A stretch of 64,000 nt of DNA from Gordius sp. MW1 (taxonomy: Eukaryota; Nematomorpha; Gordioida; Gordea; Gordiidae). The notes beneath the pieces are model-generated. The model did no database searches. It saw only the letters and a list, made by a program, of their open reading frames with translations, and was not told the origin of the DNA. The translations under genes were made by a program, and so were the position numbers. The DNA lies in NCBI GenBank assembly GCA_964036665.1, contig OZ038528.1:6764501-6828500 (forward strand), given 5' to 3'. Shown here piece after piece: positions 999-58,252 of this stretch (the first letter of the stretch is position 1; each line of letters starts with the position of its first letter).

Positions 999-3477
999 AT
1001 GGAGGAATATAGTTTTATTGAGATTATAAATTATATGAAAAATGGGACTATTTCAGCAAACCTTACCTATAGACAAAAATTCTATTTCCTTGAAAAGACA
1101 AAAAAATACAAATTAGAAGAAAATTTGTTGTATGTTAGGAGGGCAGCTACATTTTGTGGCCAAAAAAGAGGTATTAAATATGAAGCATATTTTATTTTGT
1201 TAGATAAGTGGTTTAGGGTTGTTACAGAACCCGAAGAAAAGAAACAATTACTTAGTTTGTATCACAATGGTACTGAGGGAACCATCGTAGGACAAAGCCT
1301 AGGGTCACATCTTGGCATCAATCGCACAAGGGCCAAGATCACTGAAAAGTATTAGTTTAATTGTTAGCAAATTAAATAATTTATTATAAATAGCTATTGG
1401 TGGCCACATTTATCTGAGGATGTGACAGCCTATATCAATGGTTGCAGTATGTGCCAAAAGCACTCTGGAAAAACTGATAAGGCTACCCCTCTCTTGCATC
1501 CTGTATCCATCCCTTCATCACCATGGCGACTTGTTGGGATGGATTTATGCAACATGCGACCCAGTTCGGAAGGTTATTGCTGCTTTCTAGTAGTCATTGA
1601 CTACTTTACAAAGCATGTAGTAGCTAGAGCATTGAAAAGCCATACAATGCAAGAGGTGGGGGATCACCTTATACAAATTTTTTTTGAATATGAGTTTCCC
1701 GAGGTATATTATAAAGCAAATATGATGTAATAATAAACCATTTTTAATAGGCTGTAATCAATGACCAGGGTAGGGAATTTGTGAATTCTTTTACCCAGGA
1801 GATGTACACTATGGCAGGTGTACATCAGAGGATAACCACAGCTTATCATCCCCAGGCCAATGGTTTGGTCGAGCGGATGAACAGGACTATATTGACGAGT
1901 CTCTTAAAGTCCTGGACGGTAACTGTGAGCGTTGGGAGAGAGCGTTGCCTGGCGTGATCTATTCCCTGAACACCGCGGTTCAGGGATCAACGAAGATGGC
2001 ACCTTTTTTCTTGATGTTTAATAGGTATTAACAAATCATGTCATAACACCAATTTTCTTTTTTATATCTATTAGATACGCCAGGCGAGTTTTAAAGAGCG
2101 ACATGGAAATAGCTGCCGAGCCTAAAGAGGTTGCGGTAGAGGTCCCCTCTGAATCGGGTATTAATGCTGACGTAGCCTCAATGGCTCGTCAAGCATACAA
2201 ATTTGCCAGTATGAATATCCTAAAGGCACAACAAGTGCAAAAAAAATCATACGAAAAAAGGCATAAAACGTCATATGCCTTTAAAAAAGGGGATGTTGTA
2301 CTCGGTTACAACCTTAGAAGGGCCGATAGGAAGGGAGATAAAACGGCGCCTTCTTGGTTGGGGCCCTATAAAATAGTCGATAATTTCAAAGGTATGAGAT
2401 AAGTTATATTATTTATTATTATTAAGGTACATATTCACTTGAAAACATGTCAGGGCAAAGCTTAAAAAAAAAATTCACGGGAGTTCTCTCAAGAAATTTA
2501 GACAAAATTTGGATGGGGGTATTTAATATTATATATAAATTAATAAAATATAAAAGATTTGCCTAGTGACCTTTGGACCAAATCTGATTCTTTGATAAAA
2601 GGAACAGGTAGCTAAATGAACCTTTATGACGTTCAATAGATTATGTTTAATATTTATAAAACTTGTAACCCATTTTATTGTAGCCAAAAAAAGCCATCTA
2701 AGATGTGAATTTTATGTTGGATTTTTATACTACATCTTTTTATAAATTCTATAGGAGCCGAAAATGATAGAAATATAGGGGAAATCGATAAGTTGACGCA
2801 TGATGATGGTAAAAAAATATCTAAAATATAGGATATTATATTGCTTATTATATTATTATAAAATTAAATATTTTATAGACGTAATTTACAAGTCGTCGAT
2901 AGTGGAATTTAAGCTATCGTTTATTTTGCCAGACGTTTCCTGGAAAGAAAGGGCTATGGCTAGGTAATTTAATGTATAACGGCGATTAAATTATTAATAA
3001 TTATTTTTTAGATTGGGTTATACATGCCCAATTGGCCATCAAACCCAACCTCCGAAGAAATTAGAACCAAATTTTGGGGTTTTTGAAGTCGAAGGCGACG
3101 GTAATTGTTTTTACCGTTGCATAAGCAAGGCAATCTATGATGATCCAAATCATCATTCATTAATCCGCAATTATATTTGTAATTATTATTCTTCAGCTCC
3201 TCCACCTCCAGAGGTGAAGGCTATGGTCGCACCAGAGACTATAGCAGAATATATTATTTCTCATAAATTAAATATTTTAAAAACTTGGTCTTCACATATC
3301 GATATTTTATTATTTTCTCATGCATTTTATATTTCAATTCATGTATATACTTGGCAGAGGCAATTAAACAAATGGGTATGGTTTTCTTACCCTCATTGTT
3401 TTTCTCCAGATAATTACGCAATTTATTTACAACATAACATTAATCATTTCAACTTTATTTTCGATTGTTGTTTATAA
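999..3477 (+). CDS. Ginger1-like integrase-OTU protein, 9 exons, two frame breaks
   Basis: Exons read as 999-1348, 1394-1703, 1751-2024, 2075-2391, 2427-2518, 2557-2607, 2755-2808, 2879-2963 and 3012-3477. All introns are GT-AG, of 45, 47, 50, 35, 38, 147, 70 and 48 nt. Exons 1-2 give the HHCC zinc domain (YHNG, GSHLG, CSMC). Exons 2-3 give the integrase core, with catalytic Asp in GMDLCN, Asp in INDQGREF and Glu in NGLVERMN. Exon 4 holds a GPY/F module (SWLGPYKI). Exon 9 is an OTU cysteine protease: GDGNCFYR carries the Cys and NINHFNF the candidate His. Two single-base deficits break the frame, near 1907-1910 and in the A10 run at 2464-2473; the exon sum of 1999 nt is two short of a multiple of three. 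From family knowledge, Ginger1 DNA transposons encode gypsy-like integrases that can carry OTU or Ulp proteases, and DNA transposons keep introns. It may be a transposase or a domesticated copy. AATAAA lies at 3548. Confidence 0.78.
1349..1393 (+). other. 45-nt intron in integrase-OTU gene
   Basis: GTATTAG...AATAG. Removing it joins the HHCC half-domain to the YWWPHL motif in frame, completing an AAC codon across the junction. Confidence 0.8.
2392..2426 (+). other. 35-nt intron in integrase-OTU gene
   Basis: GTATGAG...TTAAG, among the shortest introns inferred here. It splits the residues just after the GPY/F module; removing it makes a GGT codon and keeps the downstream reading. Confidence 0.7.
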
Positions 3478-5759: not shown

Positions 5760-6998
5760 TTACCTTCTGCTTATATTTCTTGCTGTGGTCTGTATTGCTA
5801 AATAGATTAGTGATGTTGACTCCTTGGTTTGGTATATACATATTCCACAAATAATAACAATGCAGCCTAATAGCTGATAAAAATTAAAGGTTTGCCACCT
5901 TAGTATTAAGGATATGGCCCAAACTATAAGAATTCTCATACTGTCAATTACCATTCTAGTGGTTGCGCTTAGAATTTTGGTAACACTTAACCCTGACACA
6001 TTAACTAAGGGGATACACGTAAAATTTAAAATTATGGATCCAATCAACGGTGCTGAACTCCTTACTTGAATCCATGCGTCAAAAGAGTTTTCCAAATAAA
6101 TTGGGTGATTATTATTATAAAAAGATTGAGAGCCAATGTTGCTGATAGGAATGTTAGAAACTAGGATTATTACAGGTATTATAAAAGATAATCCAAATAT
6201 TCCCTCCCAGCCTATAACCCAAAAACATGATAGGTCAGGGCTTTCGGTAACTATTTTTTCCTCAATCACAACTTGAAATGCTACTATGATCTGTGAGAAG
6301 AAGATTAAAAGATCAGCCATAACCGTCTTTATGATTGAATAATAATCGTGGTCACTGTTTGTAAGTATAGGATTACTGTAATTTCCCTGTTCTAGTTTTA
6401 AATTAAACGATTTGGTGTAGACTATATCCGAAACACCGACAATGATAATACCTAATAAAATTATTAAGACTCCGCTCCATTGAGATGAAGATAATTTGTT
6501 TTTAAGTAAAAGTGCCGAAAGGGCACCGGTGAAAATGATAACACCACCTCGAAACATAGAAAAACTGGAAACCAATGTCAAGTTTAAGGCATAATACATT
6601 ATACAAGATGATAACATATCACAAAACGCGGGTACGGTAAAACGAAATATGTTGCTAACTTTCAATTCTTGCTCAGTTAAATGATGGCTTTTAAATAAAT
6701 TTTCCTTCTGTTTTGATTGAGTTTTTAGCAAAGCATCCTCCTCTTGAGTAAAAATTATTTCTTGCTTTGAATTAGTGTTTTGATGGGAAAATTGTTTTTT
6801 AATTGCATAAATTACTAAACATGTAGCTTCTCCCAAAAACATGATAGCAGTTTGAATGAAGGGATGGTTAAAGTTGTGAGGGTAACCGAAAGAACCATTG
6901 GATTCTATCTTATCTGCTAATTTAATTGATATAGTATGAATAGATCCAGAGATAATCATAGTTGCTCCAATAATTAAATGTTTGATTTTAATAGACAT
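5760..6998 (-). CDS. SLC35F6-like multi-pass transporter (EamA/DMT family)
   Basis: Single uninterrupted exon of 412 codons plus stop. The frame opens slightly upstream with TTG, but the first ATG (complement of 6996-6998, MSIKIKHL) gives a normal start that leads straight into a hydrophobic helix. About ten hydrophobic segments follow. Diagnostic stretches are GGVIIFTGALSALLLK, GVLIILLGIIIVGVSD, CFWVIGWEGIFG and SVTKILSATTRMVIDS, the last two matching the conserved WEG and ATTR motifs I know from SLC35F6 (C2orf18). A hydrophilic loop near residues 70-105 is longer than usual. Family members sit in endolysosomal or mitochondrial membranes; the substrate is uncertain. The absence of introns in a region of intron-bearing genes could mean retroposition or intron loss. 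TTTATT (AATAAA on this strand) lies about 85 bp past the stop, near 5674. Confidence 0.85.
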   Translation of the reverse strand: MSIKIKHLIIGATMIISGSIHTISIKLADKIESNGSFGYPHNFNHPFIQTAIMFLGEATCLVIYAIKKQFSHQNTNSKQEIIFTQEEDALLKTQSKQKENLFKSHHLTEQELKVSNIFRFTVPAFCDMLSSCIMYYALNLTLVSSFSMFRGGVIIFTGALSALLLKNKLSSSQWSGVLIILLGIIIVGVSDIVYTKSFNLKLEQGNYSNPILTNSDHDYYSIIKTVMADLLIFFSQIIVAFQVVIEEKIVTESPDLSCFWVIGWEGIFGLSFIIPVIILVSNIPISNIGSQSFYNNNHPIYLENSFDAWIQVRSSAPLIGSIILNFTCIPLVNVSGLSVTKILSATTRMVIDSMRILIVWAISLILRWQTFNFYQLLGCIVIICGICIYQTKESTSLIYLAIQTTARNISRR

Positions 6999-7345
6999 TT
7001 CTAACAACTCAATAAAATTTTCAGTGGAAATTTAGTATTGCTAACAATTGTTGGCTTGCAAAATATGTTTAATCATTTTACTAAACGCACAGCTAAAGCA
7101 AATTAATTGATATCTTATAACATTATATTAATGCTTATTTGTGTGGCGATATAAAGTAGTAGAAAGGGCGTCGATGCTGCAAAAAATAGTATACTAACTA
7201 TATAAATTTAATGACTTTTAATTAAGCAAGTATACAAGTATACAGGTCACATATAATTAAATTAATAATGCGTTATGATTTTAGCGTATAAACGTCATAT
7301 AGTTATAATGTTGAAGTCGTTTTTTAATTGTTAATTGTATAAGTC

Positions 7346-12414: not shown

Positions 12415-13703
12415 GGTTGGGGAAAAAGTTCGTAGAGATTTTATCAAAGTCTTTTATTTAACGATAATTTATTGTTATAACAATAATTTATTCAATGATA
12501 TATTCGCCGTTGCTGTTTACGACCTCCTCCCACATTTTGACCAATTTTTCGATGCCAATACGCCAAAAATTGACCGGTCTGGTATCGACGAAGTTGTTGA
12601 GCCAGTTTTTAAGGCCCTCTACATTGTCCAAGGTAACGCCCCTCATATGGTTCGAGAGAGAGCGGAAAAAATGGTAATCCGTTGGTGCAAGGTCCGGAGA
12701 ATATGGTGGATGTTGAAGGACCTCCCATTCGAGCTCTTGGAGTGCGGCTTTTACGACTTGAGCAACATGGGGCCTTGCGTTATCGTGAAGGAGTATGGTC
12801 TGGCCTTGTCGATGGGGTCTTTTGAGTCGAATAGCCTCATTCACGCGGTGTAGCTGGGATATATAGAGCTCCTTGTTGACCGTGGCATTCCTTTCCAGAA
12901 TTTCCCAATGCAGAATGCCCTCCCAGTCCCACCAAACGCAGATCATGGTCTTTTTTGGATGGAGGTCAGGCTTGACCCTCGGCTTTGGAGTCGCTCCAGG
13001 AGCCACCCACTCCTTTCTTTGCTTCAAATTTACGTCCAAATACCATTTCTCATCTCCCATGACGATTCGGTACAAAAAGCGCTGTTTATGACCGTGGGTT
13101 GCTCGATGACGGGCGAGATGTTGAGAAGAAATTTGAAGGCGATTTTCTTTGTGGCTTTCGTTAAGCGCGTGAGGGATCCAAGATCCCAATTTTTCGGCAA
13201 ATCCCATCGAATGAAGATGATTTAGGATGGTTTTATGATCGAACTTCATTATTTCTGCCAATTCACGACTTGTTTGGCGACCGTCCTCCTTCAAAAGTGC
13301 TCTGAGACACTCTTCGTCGAATTCCGAGGGTCTTCCGCTACGGGGCTTGTCAGCGATGTCAAAATCGCCATTTTTGAACTTTGCGAACCATTTTTGTGCT
13401 GTAGACTCAACTATGACACCTTCTCCCTATACTTTACAAATGTCACGGGCTGTTTCAGCAGCGTTTTGACCACAATGAAAAGCGAAAAATAGCAGGTGTC
13501 GAAAATGTTGATTTTTACCGTTTGGATACTCCATTTTGACGTCGCGAAAGTTATTAAAAACTAAATTTCTTAAAATCACGATTGGCACAGTTTTGTAGAG
13601 GGGAAAGAGTTCTACTTAATGAATATTATATAATTCATCAGAAGCAAAAAGTCGATAAAATAATGCAACATGTGTTGCACCCTACCGAACTTTCTCCCCA
13701 ACC
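12415..13703 (-). mobile_element. Mariner transposon, nearly full length (1289 bp)
   Basis: Terminal inverted repeats begin GGTTGGGGAAAAAGTTCG at 12415 and, on the other strand, GGTTGGGGAGAAAGTTCGG at 13703. The length is typical of mariner. A clean TA target duplication is not visible at either edge (AAAG and TTTT flank the repeats), so outer bases may have changed. It carries the transposase on the minus strand. Confidence 0.85.
12488..13534 (-). pseudogene. Mariner transposase with one in-frame stop at codon 36
   Basis: The frame runs 348 codons from ATG (complement of 13532-13534) to the stop at 12488, the usual mariner length. Only codon 36 (13427-13429) is broken, reading TAG after ARDICKV. 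The N-terminus holds the HTH DNA-binding region (WFAKFKNGDFDIADKPRSGR). The catalytic triad is complete and shows DD34D spacing: Asp161 in MGDEKWYL, Asp251 in LLHDNARPH and Asp286 in YSPDLAPTDYHFF. Everything else reads cleanly, so the copy is young. Whether it was dead on arrival or recently silenced is open. Open frames on the opposite strand are shadows of this gene. Confidence 0.9.
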
Positions 13704-14118: not shown

Positions 14119-14938
14119 TTAATGATATGAATTAATTTTATTGTATTTGAGATAATCAATTTAATTTGTTAGAAATAGGGATAATTGATGAATGGAGTTA
14201 CAACAAAGGCAACGGGAGGGAAGGGTTTGGTAGATAAAGTTTCTTCGATGGATTGTTCTTTACTCAAATTTTCATATAGATTTAGACCTAAAATTACTAA
14301 ATTATATCACAATTCAGTTTATAAACATTTTGATATCTATAGAACTTCACACTTTTAATTGGTCTTACTTAAAAAATGACATTTTGAAAGTATTTTACGA
14401 TATCCAAGGAGGGATGTATTTTTTTATCTTTTTGCTTGGGCATATTTATTAATTATACCCTCCCTAGGAACTTTTAAAACTATATTTTAGACTTGAGAAT
14501 ACTCATATTAATGGTTGAGATTGAACAAAATAATAAAAAATTTTAAAGTAATTGGATATATATAAATTAAAGTGAATTTTTTTTTACCAATCCACCCCAC
14601 AAGTTATATTTTTCTAAATTTATTTTTTTAATTATTGAGTCAATTCTTTGTAGGTAGTATTTGAATGTACACAGTAAAATTAAAATTTTTTAAAAAAGTT
14701 TGAAAAAATATCAAGTTTAGTGGGAATTTTTTAATTTACCATTTTTAGTGTCCTACAAACTTTAAGACAGTTAGCTAAATTATATTGGCAATGTTCCATT
14801 TAAACAGCAATTACCGAGTCTTTTCTCTCTCATCTAACAGTCCCTATTGCCACAAGCATTGTCACACCACTAGCTAATTGGCAATCTCCATCTCGTTATT
14901 TAAAGAAAATAGTATTATTAACATACCTTCCAATAAAT
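14119..14938. other. Gene-free stretch upstream of the sulfotransferase
   Basis: AT-rich. No TATA box or other promoter element can be picked out with confidence among the many AT runs. Confidence 0.4.
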
Positions 14939-15988
14939 ATGCTTAGCTCTAATCAAAATATATACGATTCCTATTTTCGCAAAATTACAGATGCACATAT
15001 TTGGCAGGGCATCCTGTACCCCGGAGATCTATTCAAGCCAGAAGTATTGAATGACATCAAATATTTTAAAGTCAGATCCGATGACATCTTTATCTCCACC
15101 TACCCAAAATCCGGTACTACGTGGACTGCCGAACTTGTGTCAGTAATTAATAGCCAAGCTAATTTAGAATGGGCTAAAAGTCTTGATATATCCGAACGCG
15201 TCTTACATTTAGAAGCGCCACCAAATTTATGTTTGCAACAATTAGATTCCCTCCCGTCCCCACGTATATTCGAAACTCATTTACCCTACCATCTCCTGCC
15301 TGATGATATTAGACAAGGAATCGGCAAAGTCATATACGTTATGCGAAATCCGAAAGATGTCGCAGTGTCTTTCTACCATCACCATCGTATGGTTAATGAC
15401 TTAGGAAATTTCGATGGCACATTCTCAGACTTTCTCATGCTCTTCAGCGAAGGGAAGACAGTGGGAGGATCGTGGTTCGATCATGTACTGGGTTATTGGG
15501 AGCAAAAGGAGAGAGAAATACTGATCCTCAAATACGAAGACATGAAAAAGAATTTACGAGAAATCGTAGTTCAGCTAAGCTCGTACCTGGAGGTTGTTTT
15601 GTCCGCGCCACAAGTGGATGACGTGTGTCATCATTGCTCATTCGATGTCATGAGGAAGAATGAAAAAGCCAATCGAGATTGGATTCCTCTTTTCGACAAG
15701 TCAAAAAGCAACTTTATGAGAAAAGGCGTGGTAGGTGATTGGAAAAATTACTTTGATTTAGATGAAGACAGAAGTTTCATGTCGTTATATCGGTCAAGAA
15801 TGTCGCGATCGCCATCACTCAGCTTCGAGTTCGAAGGTAAAGGTTATAAAGGAGATGTAGAAACTCAGGCGATAGAGAGACCAATTCACGAACAGACTAA
15901 TAGCGTGGAACATTCAAACTTACATTGGAATAATTCTGCTAATGTCTATGAACACTTGTTACCCTCACAAACGCTTGCTCCATCCTAA
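14939..15988 (+). CDS. Cytosolic sulfotransferase (SULT family)
   Basis: Intronless 349-residue frame from a clear ATG. SULT enzymes transfer sulfate from PAPS to hydroxyl or amine groups of small molecules in the cytosol. The family signatures are present: the 5'-phosphosulfate loop TYPKSGTTW (residues 54-62, Lys57), the candidate catalytic His114 in ETHLPYHLLP, 3'-phosphate-binding Arg136 and Ser144 in RNPKDVAVSFYHHH, and the C-terminal RKGVVGDWKNYF (from Arg261) contacting PAPS. Animal SULTs run about 290-300 residues; this one has roughly 50 extra polar C-terminal residues (IHEQTNSVEHSN and on) with no obvious motif. The substrate class cannot be told from sequence. AATAAA signals lie at 16370 and just beyond. 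Lack of introns could reflect retroposition. Confidence 0.93.
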   Translation: MLSSNQNIYDSYFRKITDAHIWQGILYPGDLFKPEVLNDIKYFKVRSDDIFISTYPKSGTTWTAELVSVINSQANLEWAKSLDISERVLHLEAPPNLCLQQLDSLPSPRIFETHLPYHLLPDDIRQGIGKVIYVMRNPKDVAVSFYHHHRMVNDLGNFDGTFSDFLMLFSEGKTVGGSWFDHVLGYWEQKEREILILKYEDMKKNLREIVVQLSSYLEVVLSAPQVDDVCHHCSFDVMRKNEKANRDWIPLFDKSKSNFMRKGVVGDWKNYFDLDEDRSFMSLYRSRMSRSPSLSFEFEGKGYKGDVETQAIERPIHEQTNSVEHSNLHWNNSANVYEHLLPSQTLAPS

Positions 15989-27965: not shown

Positions 27966-40101
<12,136 letters not shown>

Positions 40102-48932: not shown

Positions 48933-51900
48933 TTACGTTTTTGAATTGTAACCTTCAATCATATTTTCGATAATGAAATTGAAGGCCTTTTTGTAGATGT
49001 TCTCAATATTTTCCGTATATCGATCTTCTAATGTTTCTTTGATGGCGTTTAGAAAAGGGTCGCGAAGTTTCTAATTAAAAACGAAGTTTAAAAGATATTT
49101 GTTCAAATATATTATAAGTAATTCTCACAAATTTAACTAATTTAAAGTTAATCCAATTAAGAATTGTGAACAATTATTATTAATTACATTAATATATGGA
49201 TTCAAGTGTAAAAATTCACCGCTTTTAATTAAGTTGAAAGCAAATATACCAATTTTGACCATACCAAAATCTTTCTACTATTTCAACAGGTGAATATTAT
49301 ATTTATAATAATAAAAAACAGCACTCTAAGATATTAAAATTACAATTTTGGTCTTTTAGTAACAATTCCAAATTTTTAGAAATGCCATGCTTTAATAAAG
49401 ATGACCTTGCCAATTAACTTCACAAGTTATTTGGCAAATCTAGTTTGATTTACATTACGACTAAATAAAAATGCACACTTCAAAAAAGGATGGATCAAAG
49501 TTTTTAAAATGCTGGTAGGAATTGCCTAAGGCAAATAGGAAATCTCGAAATTTATCGTAGTCTTCTAGTAAAAGGATGGATTTGGAGAAACCATTCATTA
49601 TGGAATCAGCAGTGGCACCGATGGCATTTTCTTTATCCTCTTCTTTCACGTTCGCCTTGATCACATCCCCGAATTCGGGATGATTTGCGAGCAGTCTTAA
49701 ATATATTAATTTAATTTCATAAATGTAAAATTTGACAATAATTTACGGATACTACATTAATAAAGCAATCTCATCTTATCTGTATAAACATAAAATTTGA
49801 TTAGTAAGTAAATTTGGTCCATTTTAGGTGACGTTTTCAATAATGTGCAGTAAAAATTACAGAAGTTATGGAAGAAAATAAATGAGAACAAGAATTATCC
49901 ATCATAAGTTATTCAACAAAATGAATATCTTTCAATTAGTTAAACATGGCGGCCTATGTCTTTACTTAATATTTATCAGCTGTTTACCAGCCTAGTATTA
50001 TTAGTCTAAGGCTATAAGTAAACCATACAAGTGACTAAATTTATAAAATCATTCCTAACATGTATAGATTAACTGTTTGCAAATATTTTTTTGAATTTTT
50101 ATTTTGGCTTACGTTCTAAACAAGTTTATAATAATTTGTAAATTAATTAAACTGGTAGAAATGATCATATCGTTACACTACCTGATATAATGACCGTTGT
50201 TTTTACCTTCATTTTCACGTTAAAATTTAATAGACACTAATAACCATTAAAGTCTTGTTAAGTCAGGAGCGCCCCCCCTTTATATTATATTTAAAGGAGC
50301 GGAGGAGCGGCTTCCTCTCCCGCTCCAGCCCTAAAAGGAGCTACTCCCGCGCCCGCTCCTCATTTTTAAAAAGGAGGGGCGCTCCAGCTTTTTTTATAAA
50401 AAGTAGCGGCGCTCCTGACTTAACAAGACTCGAACTTGTTTCTAATTGTGAGAAGAGAGGTTAAACTGTATAGCAATGAAGGCACCGACTGTCAGGCGCT
50501 TTTAAAAAGAAGCGGGGGGGGGGTGGGGATAATCGCATTATTGTATCGATTGATTATTCTATCAAGCATAATTAGGCCCTTTATTTTTAATGAGAGTGAT
50601 TGGGCCTAAAATCGATTATAACTAATCAGCAATCCAATATCGCCGTCCCCCACCCAACCAATCAAAAGCTCAAAAGAGGCATAAAAAAGTCAAGTTATTG
50701 GCAATTATAATGCAAACGATAGATGTGCGCCATTATGTCAAAAAAACATATTCGACAAATGACAACCAGTGCCTTTAAAAAAACTAATTCTCTTGTTGCG
50801 TCCATTGTCTTAATTGATTTAATTGACCACCAAGCATACCTCGAGGTATCACCACTATATATAATTGATTTGTTTATACCTCGCGGAGGCAACACTAAAC
50901 TTAATTGATTTCAATTAATATATGTGTATATAAAGGAATTTTATATACACCAGAACCGACTTTGTTCTCGCATACAATTTACTTTATTTGGATAATAAAT
51001 AAAGCACTTATTACTTTAACTTAGTGGTATTATTTTATCCCGAAATTGGTGACCCCGCATTTCGGGGGAGCCGTTTTTTCCCTCCCCCAGAATACGCCCT
51101 TAAGCAACGGTGTCTTGGTTTTTTTTTGTGTTAAAATTATGAAATTTAGATATTGGGCACTCCTTAGTAAATCTGGCAGCCAATACAAATATTGTAAAGA
51201 CACGATCGAGCCGAACAACCAAACACGTCAACTTCTAAATATCGAAATCTGCGTGTCCGACTGCTATGCCTTCCTATCTGATTACTACTACGACAAAAAG
51301 ACCTCGATGCCCTGCTACATCTCTACATAGACAACAACAAAGTCTGCCGAACGCCCAACCACTGCTGCCCAACCACTGCTCTTCGCATGGCCCTAATCGA
51401 AAAACCCATCTCAACATCAACCCACATGGCCTCTTGCAACGAGCAAAGACTACGTTCGACAATAACAATAACACCTACTACCAACGTTCTCACCACCGCT
51501 TACCGGTTTAGTTGATGGACGATTGCGATTCCAATATAGATACCTCTGCCCGAGGCATGTAACTTATTAATATATTGGATAGCACCACAACGACACACAC
51601 ACAACTCACACCTCGGCCACTTCACTAACAACCATGGTAGGCGGTAGAAAACTGGCTAGTATTACGATCATCCCTTACACATACTTTAAAACTGGCTAGT
51701 ATTACGATCATCCCTTACACATACTTTAAACTGGCTAGTATTACGAACATCCCTTACACATACTTTACATCAACTAAGAAATTTTTCAATTTTATATAAC
51801 GCTCCACTTCAACGAAGGAGACTATTTGTTGCGTCCATTGTCTTAATTGATTTAATTGACCACCAAGCATACCTCGAGGTATCACCACTATATATAATTG

Positions 51901-54900
51901 ATTTGTTTATACCTCGCGGAGGCAACACTAAACTTAATTGATTTCAATTAATATATGTGTATATAAAGGAATTTTATATACACCAGAACCGACTTTGTTC
52001 TCGCATACAATTTACTTTATTTGGATAATAAATAAAGCACTTATTACTTTAACTTAGTGGTATTTTTTTATCCCGAAACTCTCCCTCAAATAAATTCGAT
52101 AACATTTTTAAAGCATAGTGGTAGCCTTAGTAATTTGTCACGATATAGAAATTAACTTACACTGAAAAGATGTCCTTAAAAAAGATCAATATTTACGACT
52201 TTTATTACGCTCGTGATGGCCAGTTATTAGATACGTTTAAATTTTGTTGTGTATAAAATTTAAATATATTATTATTTACCTACCTTATAAATAATGCACG
52301 AGAGTAGATAAATTATAACAAATGTAAAGTTTTTATACCGATTTAAAAATTTAATAATATCTACAATTTTATGTAAGCATATATTGTCCTGTTTTTTCAT
52401 CTAATTACTATAACGTTATTATTAGCAGAACATTATGAACTAAGCTTAGACCGATAAAATTGATTAAGATCAAAACTCAACATTATATAGGCATAAGCAT
52501 AACATTTAACCCTTCTCAAAAATTTAAATAAGCAGCCAGCATTGTTACCTTTTTCCATTTTATTTTTGTTTTTATGGGGTTATTTTATTTAAAATTAAAG
52601 AATAATAGTATATAATTTTGCCCATTTGTTAAGTAAATAAACGCCGATCGATGAAGGCCATATCACTTTAATCGTATCACAAACAGTAATAAAATTTGTA
52701 ATTTTAAAAACTTTTAGCAAAAAGATATTCATGCACACAAAACTAAGTCGGTTTTTAAAATAGTGTGTATAAGAGTTGATGCATCATTAAAATGGCGGAT
52801 AACTCAAACTTCAGGTTTGGTTTTGAGTTTAAAAAATATAAATTCAAATTCCAACCTAGCTGAGCATTGAGTTTTCAACCTAAAAATGCCAGATAATTCA
52901 AATTTAATGGGGTGACGTGAAAATAATTAACTGGTGGGACGTAGGGATTTATTAAGTAAAAGGATTTCATTATGACAATCACAAAATTGAAATAAGTAAA
53001 GAATCAACCTTAATGACTTTTGAAATATAATGATCATAGGAATATGTGATTTTAGTTGATCTTAAAAAACCTTTTAAATAAAAGGATAAAAAATACATTA
53101 ATAAACTTTTACCAACCATCATTAATAATTTAGGACATAAGAATTCCGGGCTAGTGCTAGAGGCCTTATTTACAGCACGAAAGCGTACTTACTCAAATAA
53201 AAATCACTTTATCAATAATATGTATAGAAACTTTTAAGAGATCCCTTGATTATAAAAGTGATAAAATTTTTTGTACTCTTTTAACTCCTAATTGTTCGCC
53301 AGATCATGTTACAACAATTCGTATAAACGCTAGTTGAAATTATTAGACCTATTATTGTGTTAAAAACCTCTAGCTTAATACGCAAAATGTAAATAAGGGT
53401 TGAATATCTTTTAAGTCAGTTTGGATATTCTAAAGTGTAAATATACCCTATGAAGGCATAATAATTTTATTTAGCTCTAAATAATAGCCAGGATCTACTA
53501 GGTAAAATTTGTAACATTCTGTACTAATAAGTTAAATTTTTTTACTTAGTAAAGTTCTAAAAATTTAAGGGTCCTTAAAGTTTCATTCATTCCAAATTAT
53601 GTATAAAAAAGAAAAAATCATCGCATTCGCTATAAATGTATCCAATGATAGTTCCAGTTAAAGTCGTTTGTTTTACTTTAGCCCGATCCGAGTTCCATAT
53701 TTAAATAGAAAAGCAAATTTTGAATTTCAAATTGTAAGAACACTTATGTTAAATTAATGTTTACAAATTCATTTTATATGCTAAATTCAATCATACTTTT
53801 TTTATAAGCTCTATTGCTATTTGATATGTGTGTTTTTATTTATAAACATGACATTTTTATTTTACAATTTTTAGCAACAAAAAGTTACATACAAAAGGAA
53901 CGCTGTAAAAACGTTATAATAATAATTTGAAATAGTTTTAATGCCTTTTACATGGCTTGGCTTGAGTTTGCGACGGGCCATGTGGCCTACGGTTGGACTG
54001 TCTCATCAAAGGCTCCCCGAGCCCGATTATATTAATTTTTGTCCGAACCTTGACAACCCTTCGGGCTTGAACAAGATTGGAGAAAAATATTCTCCTAGAT
54101 ATTGAGATTTATGTGCAAAATCGAATAAAAGACGTCATGAAATGCATCTTATTAGGGAGTTTTACTTATAATATTATAGGGATAAAGCGTAATAATATAT
54201 TAACTTGCATCCTAATGTTTGATTTAAAGTATTCTAATAATTAATTTTTTTTAAATAATCAAAATTTTAATAAACTAAAATATTTAATTTTGCCTTTCAA
54301 GGATCTCAGTTTTAAGGAGGCTTTAAACTGTTACCATGGTGTTTTAATAAAATTGCGGCTTAAAAAACTTAGCCATAAGCATGCTGCCTTTAAAGGTATA
54401 AATTAGTGTGAAGATTTGTACTTTTATGGCTGACTTGTTGTGTATGGTTGTGGCTAGGTATTCCGAAAATAGTCGGTTTTATTAGTTTTGTTAATTGAAT
54501 ACTTTATCTTTTTGGCTTGATTAAGGTGCAAGTCGAAGGTTAACAAAAGAGAGAAAACCTATGCTGATTGGATACACAATATTGATAAGGTTTGAAGTAA
54601 GAGTTTAAGCTAATTTGGTGTAATTAGAAATATAAGGGCAAAAAATCTAATGATGATTTGGTTTGACAAAAAGGTATAGGGAAAATTTTCGTCACCGTTT
54701 ACCCGCTCCTCACATGATTAAAAGTAATGTTAGGCCCCTAAAGGCCAAAACTCTAACTACGCCACTGCTCCAAAATATAATCATTATTTTAAAGGTAGCA
54801 AGGCTATCCAAGATTTGACAGCCTATCATTAAACATTCAATTAAACAAACTTTTTATAAAATTATAAATTTTATAATAAGCGAATACCCGTAGTAGTGAA

Positions 54901-57900
54901 CTCATTGTTTGCTTAATTTTTATATGATTAATTGGCATTCTGTACACTTGGTCCATAATAGGTTATCGTTATAAGATTGTTAAAGATTCCAAATCAAATG
55001 GTTTTACAGACCTACTTTAGAGCTATAATCATAAAATTAAGTTTAAAACTGATATGGCATCATCGTTAATCGTAAATAATAGAGATTATGAAGCCATTAA
55101 ACTTTATTAAAAAATTAGGTTCCTAAAAATTAAGCTTGGTAAAACATTGATCAATTCTTTTTAGTAAGTATAACACAATAATCACTATAACGTCCATTTT
55201 GGAGAGAGCTGTCACAACAACCTGCACAAAAACACTTTTATATTGATTAAATTTTTGTCCATTTTATTTTAAAGCATAGTGTTACAACGAAGCTGCAAAG
55301 TAAAGCTCTCATTTATTAGACACTAGATGAACACGGCAAACGTTGTTTTGCCATTTACCCGGGTGTAATTTTAGGGCATATATGATGATGAAGCGGTTAT
55401 TGAAGTAAAAATAAAGTTTGATGTCTATATTTTCTACTTCTATTGTTCTATTTCCGTATACAGTGCAACGCGTACGAATAATCGAAAACTACTGGACCGA
55501 TTTGGCTCAAACAAATCTTAAAACATGCTCCGGAGTGTCAGGAATAAACTGTGAAATTTTGAGCCAAATCGGTCTGGTAGTTTTCCAAAATTGGTGGCGG
55601 CATATATACACACATGTATACATAGTTTCATTTTTATATATAAGATGACAGAACAATAAGATGCACAAAACACGTTAAATCATGAGCAGGAAACAAAATT
55701 AGAAAAATTATTTTTTAACTACAAATTTGTGAACAATGTGTAGTGTAAGAATTTAATTTAAGCTCTTTATAAATCCATTGTCTGTCTTTTTCTAGCTCAT
55801 CCTACTAACAAAACGACCTCTCGGAAAAAATCAATAACTTGTAATTAATTGGTTTTACCTATAAAATGGCAACCTACTATGCATAATTTATTCCTAGTTA
55901 TAAAATTAAAATATATAGTAACCAGCCGTAAAAACTTTTAGCAAAATAGGTTTATTACACTATGCTCTCGTCCCATTTGAGTAATTTTATAGATCGTCCT
56001 AAATGTAAGAAAAAATAATGATAATATCTCGTGGGTGTTAATTAGCAATAACAAATATTTTATTAATTAATTGTTATATCTTTTTTGAATTTATAGCTAG
56101 AAAAGGTTCAAGGTTAAGCTAGTTTATATACATCGTTTTCCCGCCTTATAAATGGTTTCCAATTAATTAAAAACTTAATCGAAAATTTGTTTGAATGACA
56201 AAAACACTAATGCAGATCAGAAATACCTGTCACTCATGATAAATCATTTTAATATTAGGCACTGTGTTATAAGATTCATGATATAAAAGGAAAAGGTTGG
56301 TGGTTCTAAAATGATGGGCGTAGCCAGGGGGATGCATGGAGCGGTGGCTGCTTCCCTAAATTCTTTAAAACTTAATTTATTTATAGCTAAAATTTAAAAA
56401 AATTATCATTTTGCCCACCCTAAATTATTATTGCCCCTCCTCTAATTCAGACCCTGGCTACACCCATGCTAAAAACACTTTTAGATTTTAAAATTAATGC
56501 CCATGAAGTAATTAATCGATTGAACTTAATCCATTGAAAATGGAGAAGTTTGTAAAATGTTACGCAGCGGGATATATAATTGAAATTCATCTTAAAGTGT
56601 AAATTATTTTACATCTGGTTGCTAATTAAAAAAATTATATTGATTTTTTATATACCATGTAGAAATTACGAGTGTTAATGATATAATATTAAAATCCCTT
56701 TGCGAAACGAGATGCAAATCAAATTAAAATCATCCATCGATTTTATAAATTAGAAATGCCATTTTCCACACTTGAACAAATTACTTAATAGTATTGATCA
56801 AAAATTGCTAAACCCTTTTAGTTGGCATCACATCATATGTGCTAAAAGTTTTTACGTTTTATAAATAATCATTATAAATATAGACTTGACAAGCCGTAAA
56901 AGTTAGTTAATTTTATAAATCCTTTGAAGATCATATAAAAATTTCATATTCTTAAAAAAAATATTTTAAATTGGAAATTACCGAAAAAATTATAAATATA
57001 TTTTTGTCAAAACTACGAATATGATAAAGTACATAGACTTCCCGACGGGGCGACATGCAAAGGATCTTACAAAGGTACTTGACTCCTTTTATTAAGAAAA
57101 ATAATTAGGGTGAACAAACAAAATATGATTAAAATATAGAGATTATTAATATAAATGTGATTTTTTAGAAAATCTACACTTGTGGAAACGAGAGCTCATT
57201 AGGTAATATAATAGCCATTGCGTTTATTATTAAAAGGTAAAATCAATATATTTTGAAATTTGCCTTAAAATTTTAAAATGTTTAAACCGGGCTCGGGTAA
57301 AAATTGAAATAAAACATCAGGCTCGGGTTGGTCTAATATAAAAAAAACATGGTCCGATAAAATAAATTCACAAGAGTACAAACATAATATAACTTTTTTG
57401 GTTATGTTATGGCCATATAATTATTGTAATTTACACAACATTAAAACTTTTATAAGTCCCTGCTTAATTTTAAAAAGATTTATAGAGAGAATTTGAAGTA
57501 AAAGCTATAATGTTGATTATATAATTGTATAAATCTAATTTATCTTTTTATTAACAAAATCTAAGGTCAAATTCATTCATATTAAAATTTATTATGTTTG
57601 CTAAGAATTAATTAATATCTAAGAGCAAGTTTGATGGTTTTCTGAGAGTTGCTTCAACCAGAGTTTTCTCATGGCATAGATAACAGGAATATTAACGTTT
57701 TGGTCCTATATGTCTGCAAATCATGGTGGATATGAACTTAATAAGTTAAGTAGTTACTAGTTTAAAGGGAAAAGGACAGAGTTCCTCTTCACTGAAAAGA
57801 AGGCAAGTATCACGTTGAACATAGCAAAAATTCGATAAAATTTAATTTAACAAATTTCTAAATTCCATAAACATTGTACATTTGCTTATTACAAAGGGTA

Positions 57901-58252
57901 GGGGGGGGGGGCAAATGCCACGTAAAAGATATTACATAAGATTAAGAAATAGTTTTGTATAATATCTCACTCTATGAATTTAAAAATAAATCATCATTTA
58001 CTTGTTCATCATACTCATCCCCGTTTCTTCCATGTTACGGGTGACACCCTTCCAAGACTTACCGGCTAAAAATATTTCTCGCCTCGTCAATGGAACTCGA
58101 GGATCATTCATTGGCGGTTTATCATATATATCTCCTGGTGCGCCTGGTACGTTATTACCAACCGCATTTGCAACCTTCTTACCAGAACCGACACCTGTTG
58201 GGCCTCCGGGTGGGCCGTCGGTTTTGGTTTGGGAGCTGGATACGCAACCCAT
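48933..58252 (-). CDS. N-myristoylated globin lacking F8 and E7 histidines, 3 exons
   Basis: Exons are 58252-58002, 49695-49479 and 49070-48933 (606 nt, 201 residues plus stop). Introns fall at B12.2 and G7.0, the two ancestral animal globin positions. The start chosen is MGCVSSS: Gly2 fits N-myristoylation and Cys3 palmitoylation, so it is probably membrane-bound, like globin X-type proteins. An upstream in-frame ATG at 58312 would hide that signal. A Gly/Pro linker (residues 13-53) leads into the fold: helix A PLTRREIFLAGKSWKGV (Trp67 = A12), Pro90 (C2), helix E to H without gaps against neuroglobin. By that alignment CD1 is Ile96, E7 is Thr112 and F8 is Tyr144, with His146 two residues later. 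Related invertebrate globins have Phe, His or Gln, and His there. No frame break or stop, so it seems functional. The first intron is 8.3 kb and full of transposons. AATAAA is at 48791-48786. Confidence 0.88.
50251..50430. mobile_element. MITE with 23-bp TIRs and GGAGCGG-rich core
   Basis: The ends are perfect inverted repeats, AGTCTTGTTAAGTCAGGAGC plus GCC, around a core of repeated GGAGCGG/CCGCTCC words. Length 180 bp. No target duplication is visible, and if the element starts at CAGGAGCG the outer repeats would be host palindrome. The core resembles hAT subterminal repeats. Confidence 0.7.
50794..51045 (+). mobile_element. Left LTR of TRIM-like element
   Basis: 252-bp repeat beginning TGTTGCGTCC and ending TATCCCGAAA. 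It includes a promoter-like TATATAAAGGAA and AATAAATAAAG downstream, as expected for an LTR with start and poly(A) signals. Preceded by CTCT, the target duplication. Confidence 0.88.
51046..51826 (+). mobile_element. Internal region of TRIM-like LTR element
   Basis: Starts TTGGTGACCCCGCATTTCGG directly after the LTR, the position and form of a tRNA primer-binding site. The interior is only 781 bp and has no gag or pol homology. It contains a 39-40-bp unit (ACTGGCTAGTATTACGATCA...) three times at 51651, 51691 and 51730. It ends AACGAAGGAGACTATT before the right LTR, a weak polypurine tract. It must move with enzymes from another element. Confidence 0.82.
51827..52078 (+). mobile_element. Right LTR of TRIM-like element
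   Basis: 252-bp direct repeat of 50794-51045. The only difference I noticed is TATTATTTTATC versus TATTTTTTTATC near the 3' end, so the insertion is recent. Followed by CTCT (52079-52082), matching the left flank. Confidence 0.88.
55322..55645 (-). mobile_element. Short Helitron (324 bp) in globin intron
   Basis: On the minus strand it starts TCTTATATATAAAAATG and ends with the shared hairpin and CTAGT. It has a single inverted-repeat module (ACCGATTTGGCTCAAA ... GAGCCAAATCGGT), the minimal form of the copy at 24577-25044. Confidence 0.85.
56313..56468. mobile_element. MITE of the 'GGGCGTAGCCAGG' family
   Basis: Left GATGGGCGTAGCCAGGGGG and right (complement) CATGGGTGTAGCCAGGG are inverted repeats about 155 bp apart. 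Flanks CTAAAAT and CTAAAAA suggest an aged target duplication. The interior resembles part of the Helitron-nested element at 31680-32010 (TTTGCCC... and CTAATTCA). Confidence 0.6.

Follow-up and report, generated by a model that had tools for sequence, protein, structure and literature searches.

Can a globin that has lost the histidine at F8 still bind haem, or has it taken up a role without it? This question is raised by a gene of the hairworm Gordius sp. MW1 (Nematomorpha), which lies on the reverse strand at positions 48933..58252 of a 64,000-nucleotide (nt) stretch of contig OZ038528.1 (assembly GCA_964036665.1, positions 6,764,501 to 6,828,500; hereafter the window). It encodes a 201-residue globin with a lipid-anchor-type start, in which F8 is tyrosine, E7 threonine and CD1 isoleucine. 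A preliminary description, made from the DNA letters alone, proposed that this protein either binds haem in another way, through Tyr144 or His146, or has lost haem. Here we show by sequence comparison that two hairworms hold this intact, constrained globin with the same start and the same three residues, and we propose, with somewhat better than even credence, that a former haem membrane globin has become a haem-free, tethered globin-fold adaptor or regulator.

The gene comprises three exons, all on the reverse strand. Exon 1 (58002..58252) encodes residues 1–83 and two bases of codon 84, spanning the MGC start, a linker, helix A and most of helix B, and ends at a GTAAAT donor; exon 2 (49479..49695) opens with the final base of codon 84, extends through residue 156, covers helices C to the start of G and carries CD1, E7 and F8; and exon 3 (48933..49070) supplies residues 157–201, with helices G and H, and the stop codon. 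The 8.3-kb intron 1 (49696..58001) is of phase 2 within codon 84, at B12 (B12.2), and the 408-base-pair intron 2 (49071..49478) is of phase 0 between residues 156 and 157, at G6/G7 (G7.0). These are the two typical globin intron positions, which are shared with globin X and occur at the same places in four paralogues in this genome. Spliced at GT–AG borders, the frame has 606 nt and 201 codons for amino acids with no internal stop, which confirms the intact three-exon gene with both introns first described, and the three residues claimed there hold at the codon level: CD1 is Ile96 (ATC, 49659..49661), E7 is Thr112 (ACT, 49611..49613) and F8 is Tyr144 (TAC, 49515..49517). Intron 1 also contains a short long terminal repeat (LTR)-like element (50793-52078, 1.29 kb), with two 253-nt direct repeats that are 100% identical and start 1033 nt apart; it is probably a recent insertion, and its interior seems too short for a full element.

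The protein is recognizably a globin. Residues 82–191 match the Pfam Globin model (PF00042) at 26.5 bits, above the curated cut-off of 22, although the six matches listed when all six frames of the genome were searched with this model do not include the split gene. Among solved structures, the closest is that of a tardigrade haem globin from Ramazzottius varieornatus (5ziq, E = 1.3e-18), which we take to be the protein called kumaglobin (5ziq/5zm9). Structural modelling, proposed at the outset as a check, predicts that the ortholog from the hairworm Gordionus (below) keeps the three-dimensional globin fold. Androglobin, described partly in PMC11077535 as a large multidomain protein with a circularly permuted globin domain, was rejected as an identity, as the window protein has 201 residues and a single globin domain with its helices in ordinary order. 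Judged by F8 His, the protein falls outside the haem-binding globins, and it also lacks the combination of CD1 Phe with E7 His or Gln, although both of these sites vary among F8-His globins. Its N terminus, MGCVSSSQ, resembles that of globin X and X-like proteins: the MGCVSS start (58235..58252), identified by eye, places Gly2 and Cys3 as in the globin X motif that is acylated, and recurs identically in the Gordionus protein (MGCVSSS). The double-acylation-type start, on which the lipid anchor proposed in the preliminary description would depend, is thus borne out as a motif, the modification itself being putative.

Three concordant anchors identify position 144 as F8. Tyr144 lies 32 residues past Thr112 and 13 codons (inclusive) before the end of exon 2, and at this E7- and exon-anchored place the four paralogues with the same introns all have His. 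Exon 2 spans 72 residues, nine fewer than its counterpart in the paralogue C6a (81), and the distance from C2 Pro to CD1 is six residues. A profile trained on nine F8-His globins, from which both Tyr proteins and the loci L029, L031, L032 and C4c were left out, puts Tyr144, like the corresponding Gordionus residue, in its conserved His column and scores the two hairworm proteins at 138.6 and 140.2 bits. A register error, including the compensating gap that would place His146 at F8, is therefore rejected. F7 is Tyr in C6a, C7 and C6b (3 of 9 rows); a one-residue slip that paired Tyr144 with this residue would give Gln or Arg at F8, so that the loss of F8 His holds in either alignment.

The other globins of the genome provide the background for this loss. 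In 211.8 Mb on 12 contigs, where only the best candidates were scored and locus counts are therefore lower bounds, we read intron-bearing globins at C6a (L020), C6b (L023), L029 and L032 (both exon 2 only), L031 (frameshifted), C7 (L021) and C1b (L022), together with four globins, three on contig C4 and one on C1, whose globin domain lies open within a single exon. F8 is His at all 11 of these loci, the frameshifted copy included. A nine-row comparison, comprising seven globins of this genome, the tardigrade globin and a protein found by profile search (P0002, without helix A), gives His at F8 and Phe at CD1 in every row, His (7/9) or Ala (2/9) at E7, and Phe at B14 in 8/9; the window protein thus lacks CD1 Phe, B14 Phe and E7 His as well as F8 His. 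C7 (an in-frame stop upstream) and C6b (a frame change upstream in exon 1) were used from the globin part onward, unmended.

Several of these loci have features of their own. The C6 members (L020, L023, L029, L031 and L032) form a cluster at G000:C6, about 21.706–21.791 Mb, that is probably a lineage-specific expansion, and L031 is frameshifted near F8. C1b (G000:C1, about 20.75 Mb) combines F8 His and E7 Ala with a polar stretch of about 215 residues that extends its N terminus and begins MGVVLG. C7 (G000:C7, about 19.943 Mb) has an in-frame upstream MGCLHS start followed by an in-frame stop before the globin part, which may mean that the start is disabled or that a further intron intervenes. 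The Ramazzottius globin (P0003), as aligned with the family, carries Ala at E7 and, at E11, a His that hints at an unusual distal ligand.

Word-based searches of about 5.8 billion proteins, a check of the kind suggested in the preliminary description, returned a single close relative, the uncharacterized protein LOC135928312 of Gordionus sp. m RMFG-2023 (P0001), another hairworm. The single-sequence query gave 68 candidates, of which one matched at E 0.01; a two-sequence profile added P0002, encoded on a 3.3-kb contig and with His at the aligned E7 and F8; and a seven-sequence profile retrieved only the Gordionus protein and the Ramazzottius chain among 1616 candidates. As these searches depend on shared short words, the absence of matches carries little meaning. 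No Gordionus paralogues surfaced in them, and ancestral states consequently rest on the Gordius genome, P0002 and the tardigrade globin. P0001 is 70% identical to the window protein over its full length, begins MGCVSSS and has Ile, Thr and Tyr at CD1, E7 and F8, but differs in its linker and C-terminal tail, has its histidines elsewhere and bears a database name without the word globin. On the basis of these sequences we take it as the ortholog.

Comparison of the two orthologs indicates that the gene is maintained. Residues 41–201 align without gaps (124/161 identical), and residues 41–79 are identical, a run seen in 4 of 20,000 shuffles. The 37 differences are conservative: 22 have positive BLOSUM62 scores, against 12.0 expected, and their mean score is +0.59, against −0.37 under neutrality, a value reached in a fraction of 0.0002 of 5,000 neutral runs. 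The simulation, which took the guanine–cytosine content as 0.30, weighted transitions by 4 and placed every change on a single branch, is a rough protein-level null, not a ratio of non-synonymous to synonymous rates (dN/dS). Neutral runs of equal divergence acquired 1.8 stops on average. Against this simple simulation, and with its frame intact, the gene does not look like a pseudogene; the window globin is shown to be under constraint, as measured with one ortholog at the protein level rather than by dN/dS.

Two rival readings, decay and artefact, meet this evidence directly. A decaying or dead duplicate might be suspected from the alteration of F8, E7 and CD1 together, the weak second donor and the presence of a frameshifted family member in the same genome; but the window gene does not resemble L031, which illustrates how decay appears among these globins, and the stop-free ortholog, with the same residues, gap-free from residue 41 and with conservative substitutions, makes drift or recent decay a poor account. 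The claim that the gene is intact and not decaying is accordingly upheld, neutral decay was not seen in the relative, and we regard a dead duplicate as highly improbable. An origin of Tyr144 in an error of the assembly, the gene model or the alignment is less credible still: the model was predicted from DNA without RNA and the intron 2 donor (GTGTGC) is weak, but the same residue appears in a second species in a separate database record, the Gordionus database protein spans both exon junctions without a gap, and the register is fixed by exon ends and by the profile.

We placed the two Tyr proteins in a 12-row tree joining the hairworm paralogues, P0002 and the tardigrade globin; L029, L032 and the frameshifted L031 were excluded, and C4c, absent from the profile, was included. 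The tree is arbitrarily rooted, and three of its nine inner branches are unresolved. The Tyr proteins group as a single clade (98/99), and a 100/99 split sets this clade on the same side as the tardigrade globin. The simplest history suggested by these sequences is that F8 His was lost once in the hairworm lineage, following a duplication. The tree foreseen in the preliminary description was thus built as regards the tardigrade, P0002 and the paralogues, while reference globin X sequences are absent from its rows.

Does the protein hold haem by another residue? The two orthologs have no histidine in common: His89 and His146 (49509..49511) lie opposite Asn and Gln in Gordionus. Because of this, haem ligation by histidine, His146 included, is very unlikely, and His146, the alternative ligand first named, is rejected as the proximal one. 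Of the view that haem is bound otherwise or lost, the part that invoked His146 falls and the part that stands is the loss of F8 His in both species. The change at F8 is more telling than those at CD1 and E7, because nematode globins that keep F8 His include members with CD1 Ile and members with a non-His E7 (PMC2228317). An unusual haem globin could instead use Met, Lys or an unshared His away from F8; conserved Met and Lys are present, for example M117 at E12, and a Methylacidiphilum globin has Lys–His ligation with proximal and distal sites swapped (PMC4476040). The unshared histidines, however, face Gln and Asn in the ortholog, and E12 is Met in five of the nine other rows, all with F8 His, so that M117 resembles a core residue rather than a new ligand; we judge such ligation improbable.

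We propose the following mechanism. An ordinary haem-binding membrane globin would have been duplicated, and one copy would have dropped His-ligated haem, most likely all haem. Myristate on Gly2 and palmitate on Cys3 would hold this globin at the inner membrane face, as in zebrafish globin X (GbX), for which membrane association was demonstrated and both G2 and C3 were required for membrane targeting (PMC3176823). Its interior would be filled by its own side chains or by a non-haem ligand, and the conserved surface formed by the pre-A segment and helices A–B (residues 41–79) may dock a partner, possibly a haem-bearing sister globin. The protein would then act as an adaptor or regulator, not as an oxygen, nitric oxide (NO) or redox enzyme. 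Direct protein interactions have been offered as a possible reason for the slow change of GbX and the GbX-like proteins (GbXL) (PMC7457136). We propose more tentatively, at somewhat less than even chances, that it is a lipid-anchored, haem-free membrane sensor or adaptor whose vacated pocket has closed or holds, for example, a lipid, strongly constrained across species: a conserved animal pseudo-globin.

Several points weigh against a haem-free protein or limit the argument for one. Tyrosine can ligate ferric haem in globin scaffolds, as in haemoglobin M (Hb M) variants and in the H93Y mutant of myoglobin. Of 13 listed pocket-lining positions, 12 match between the two hairworms, with F4 Leu, FG5 Phe and G5 Phe retained, which would suit a kept haem pocket as well. 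CD1 Ile and unusual E7 residues are found in C. elegans proteins that have F8 His and are classed as haem globins, and a predicted fold is unable to tell apo from holo protein. The candidate partner surface comes from two sequences; because much of the A-helix motif recurs in the paralogues and in the tardigrade globin, the conservation of residues 41–79 is not special to the haem question. Finally, 16% of neutral runs are stop-free, so that missing stops alone are weak evidence, and the constraint was measured with a single ortholog.

The first two of these points serve most directly a haem globin with Tyr144 as a tyrosinate proximal ligand, as in catalases and Hb M, which might act as a membrane-bound ferric sensor or peroxidase. 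Tyr144 stands at F8 and is conserved in both hairworms, and Tyr also occupies F8 in the Daphnia pulex domains HbL C, E, F and K (PMC7457136). The authors of that paper, however, term O2 binding by these domains questionable, and the window protein also lacks E7 His and the Phe residues at CD1 and B14, leaving weak support on the distal side. We consider tyrosinate ligation unlikely, though well above the other alternatives in standing, and a haem-free function of the window globin, as read from these sequences, moderately probable.

F8 loss as such is already known among animal globins. Among 187 arthropod sequences, PMC7457136 reports 14 exceptions at key sites, all of them HbL: besides the Daphnia Tyr domains, D. 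pulex HbB has Val at F8, and HbL2 of the ostracod Puriana has lost all three sites (Met, Val, Val), as has the window protein. These belong, however, to a faster-evolving class outside GbX/GbXL, and arthropod GbX/GbXL, unlike the window globin, keep CD1, E7 and F8 highly conserved (PMC7457136). F8 loss is also in print for hexapod androglobin, and all 15 putative amphioxus globins keep F8 His. C. elegans T19C4.5 has Asn in place of F8 His, although its C. briggsae homologue retains His (PMC2228317); GLB-26 (T22C1.2) is myristoylated and has CD1 Ile (PMC2228317 for the residue) but keeps F8 His, binds haem and has been proposed to be a redox protein. Globin X and X-like proteins (clades III and II of PMC7771090) share an N-terminal extension with acylation sites. 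The Ramazzottius globin, a hexacoordinate haem protein by its entry title, differs in its F8 His and CD1 Phe and in its aligned E7 Ala and E11 His. In bacteria, non-haem globin sensor domains (Stranzl et al. 2011, via PMC7457136) use a haem-free globin fold for sensing, an analogy of function. In the literature searched, which left out most subscription papers, we found no published report of a nematomorph globin with a lipid-anchor start and changes at F8, CD1 and E7; such a protein, with the three sites changed alike in two species, appears to be new.

Elsewhere in the window, a Mariner/Mos1-type transposase open reading frame (ORF; 12491-13426, reverse strand) is open for 312 codons, and a Pfam scan of ORFs identified an EamA or nucleotide-sugar-type transporter (5763-7031, reverse), a sulfotransferase (14804-15985, forward), exons of a class I transfer RNA (tRNA) synthetase, isoleucyl-tRNA synthetase (IleRS)-like by eye (29562-30107 and 35176-35544, reverse), and an OTU-like protease ORF (3001-3474, forward). 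Three of the nine ORFs scanned had no Pfam match, and an Rfam scan of the window gave nothing at gathering scores.

F8 His has served to define globins: PMC2228317 excluded T19C4.5 by it and PMC4527676 demanded it. Globins without this residue may therefore be dropped before they are counted. The function of membrane globins (GbX and X-like) is unsettled, with defence against reactive oxygen or a part in redox signalling suggested (PMC7457136). A hairworm member without the haem ligand offers a natural test of the idea that GbX and GbXL act through protein interactions. If our reading is true, a constrained member of this kind would separate the function of tether and surface from that of haem, and whatever partner the haem-free member keeps would point towards what membrane globins do as a class.
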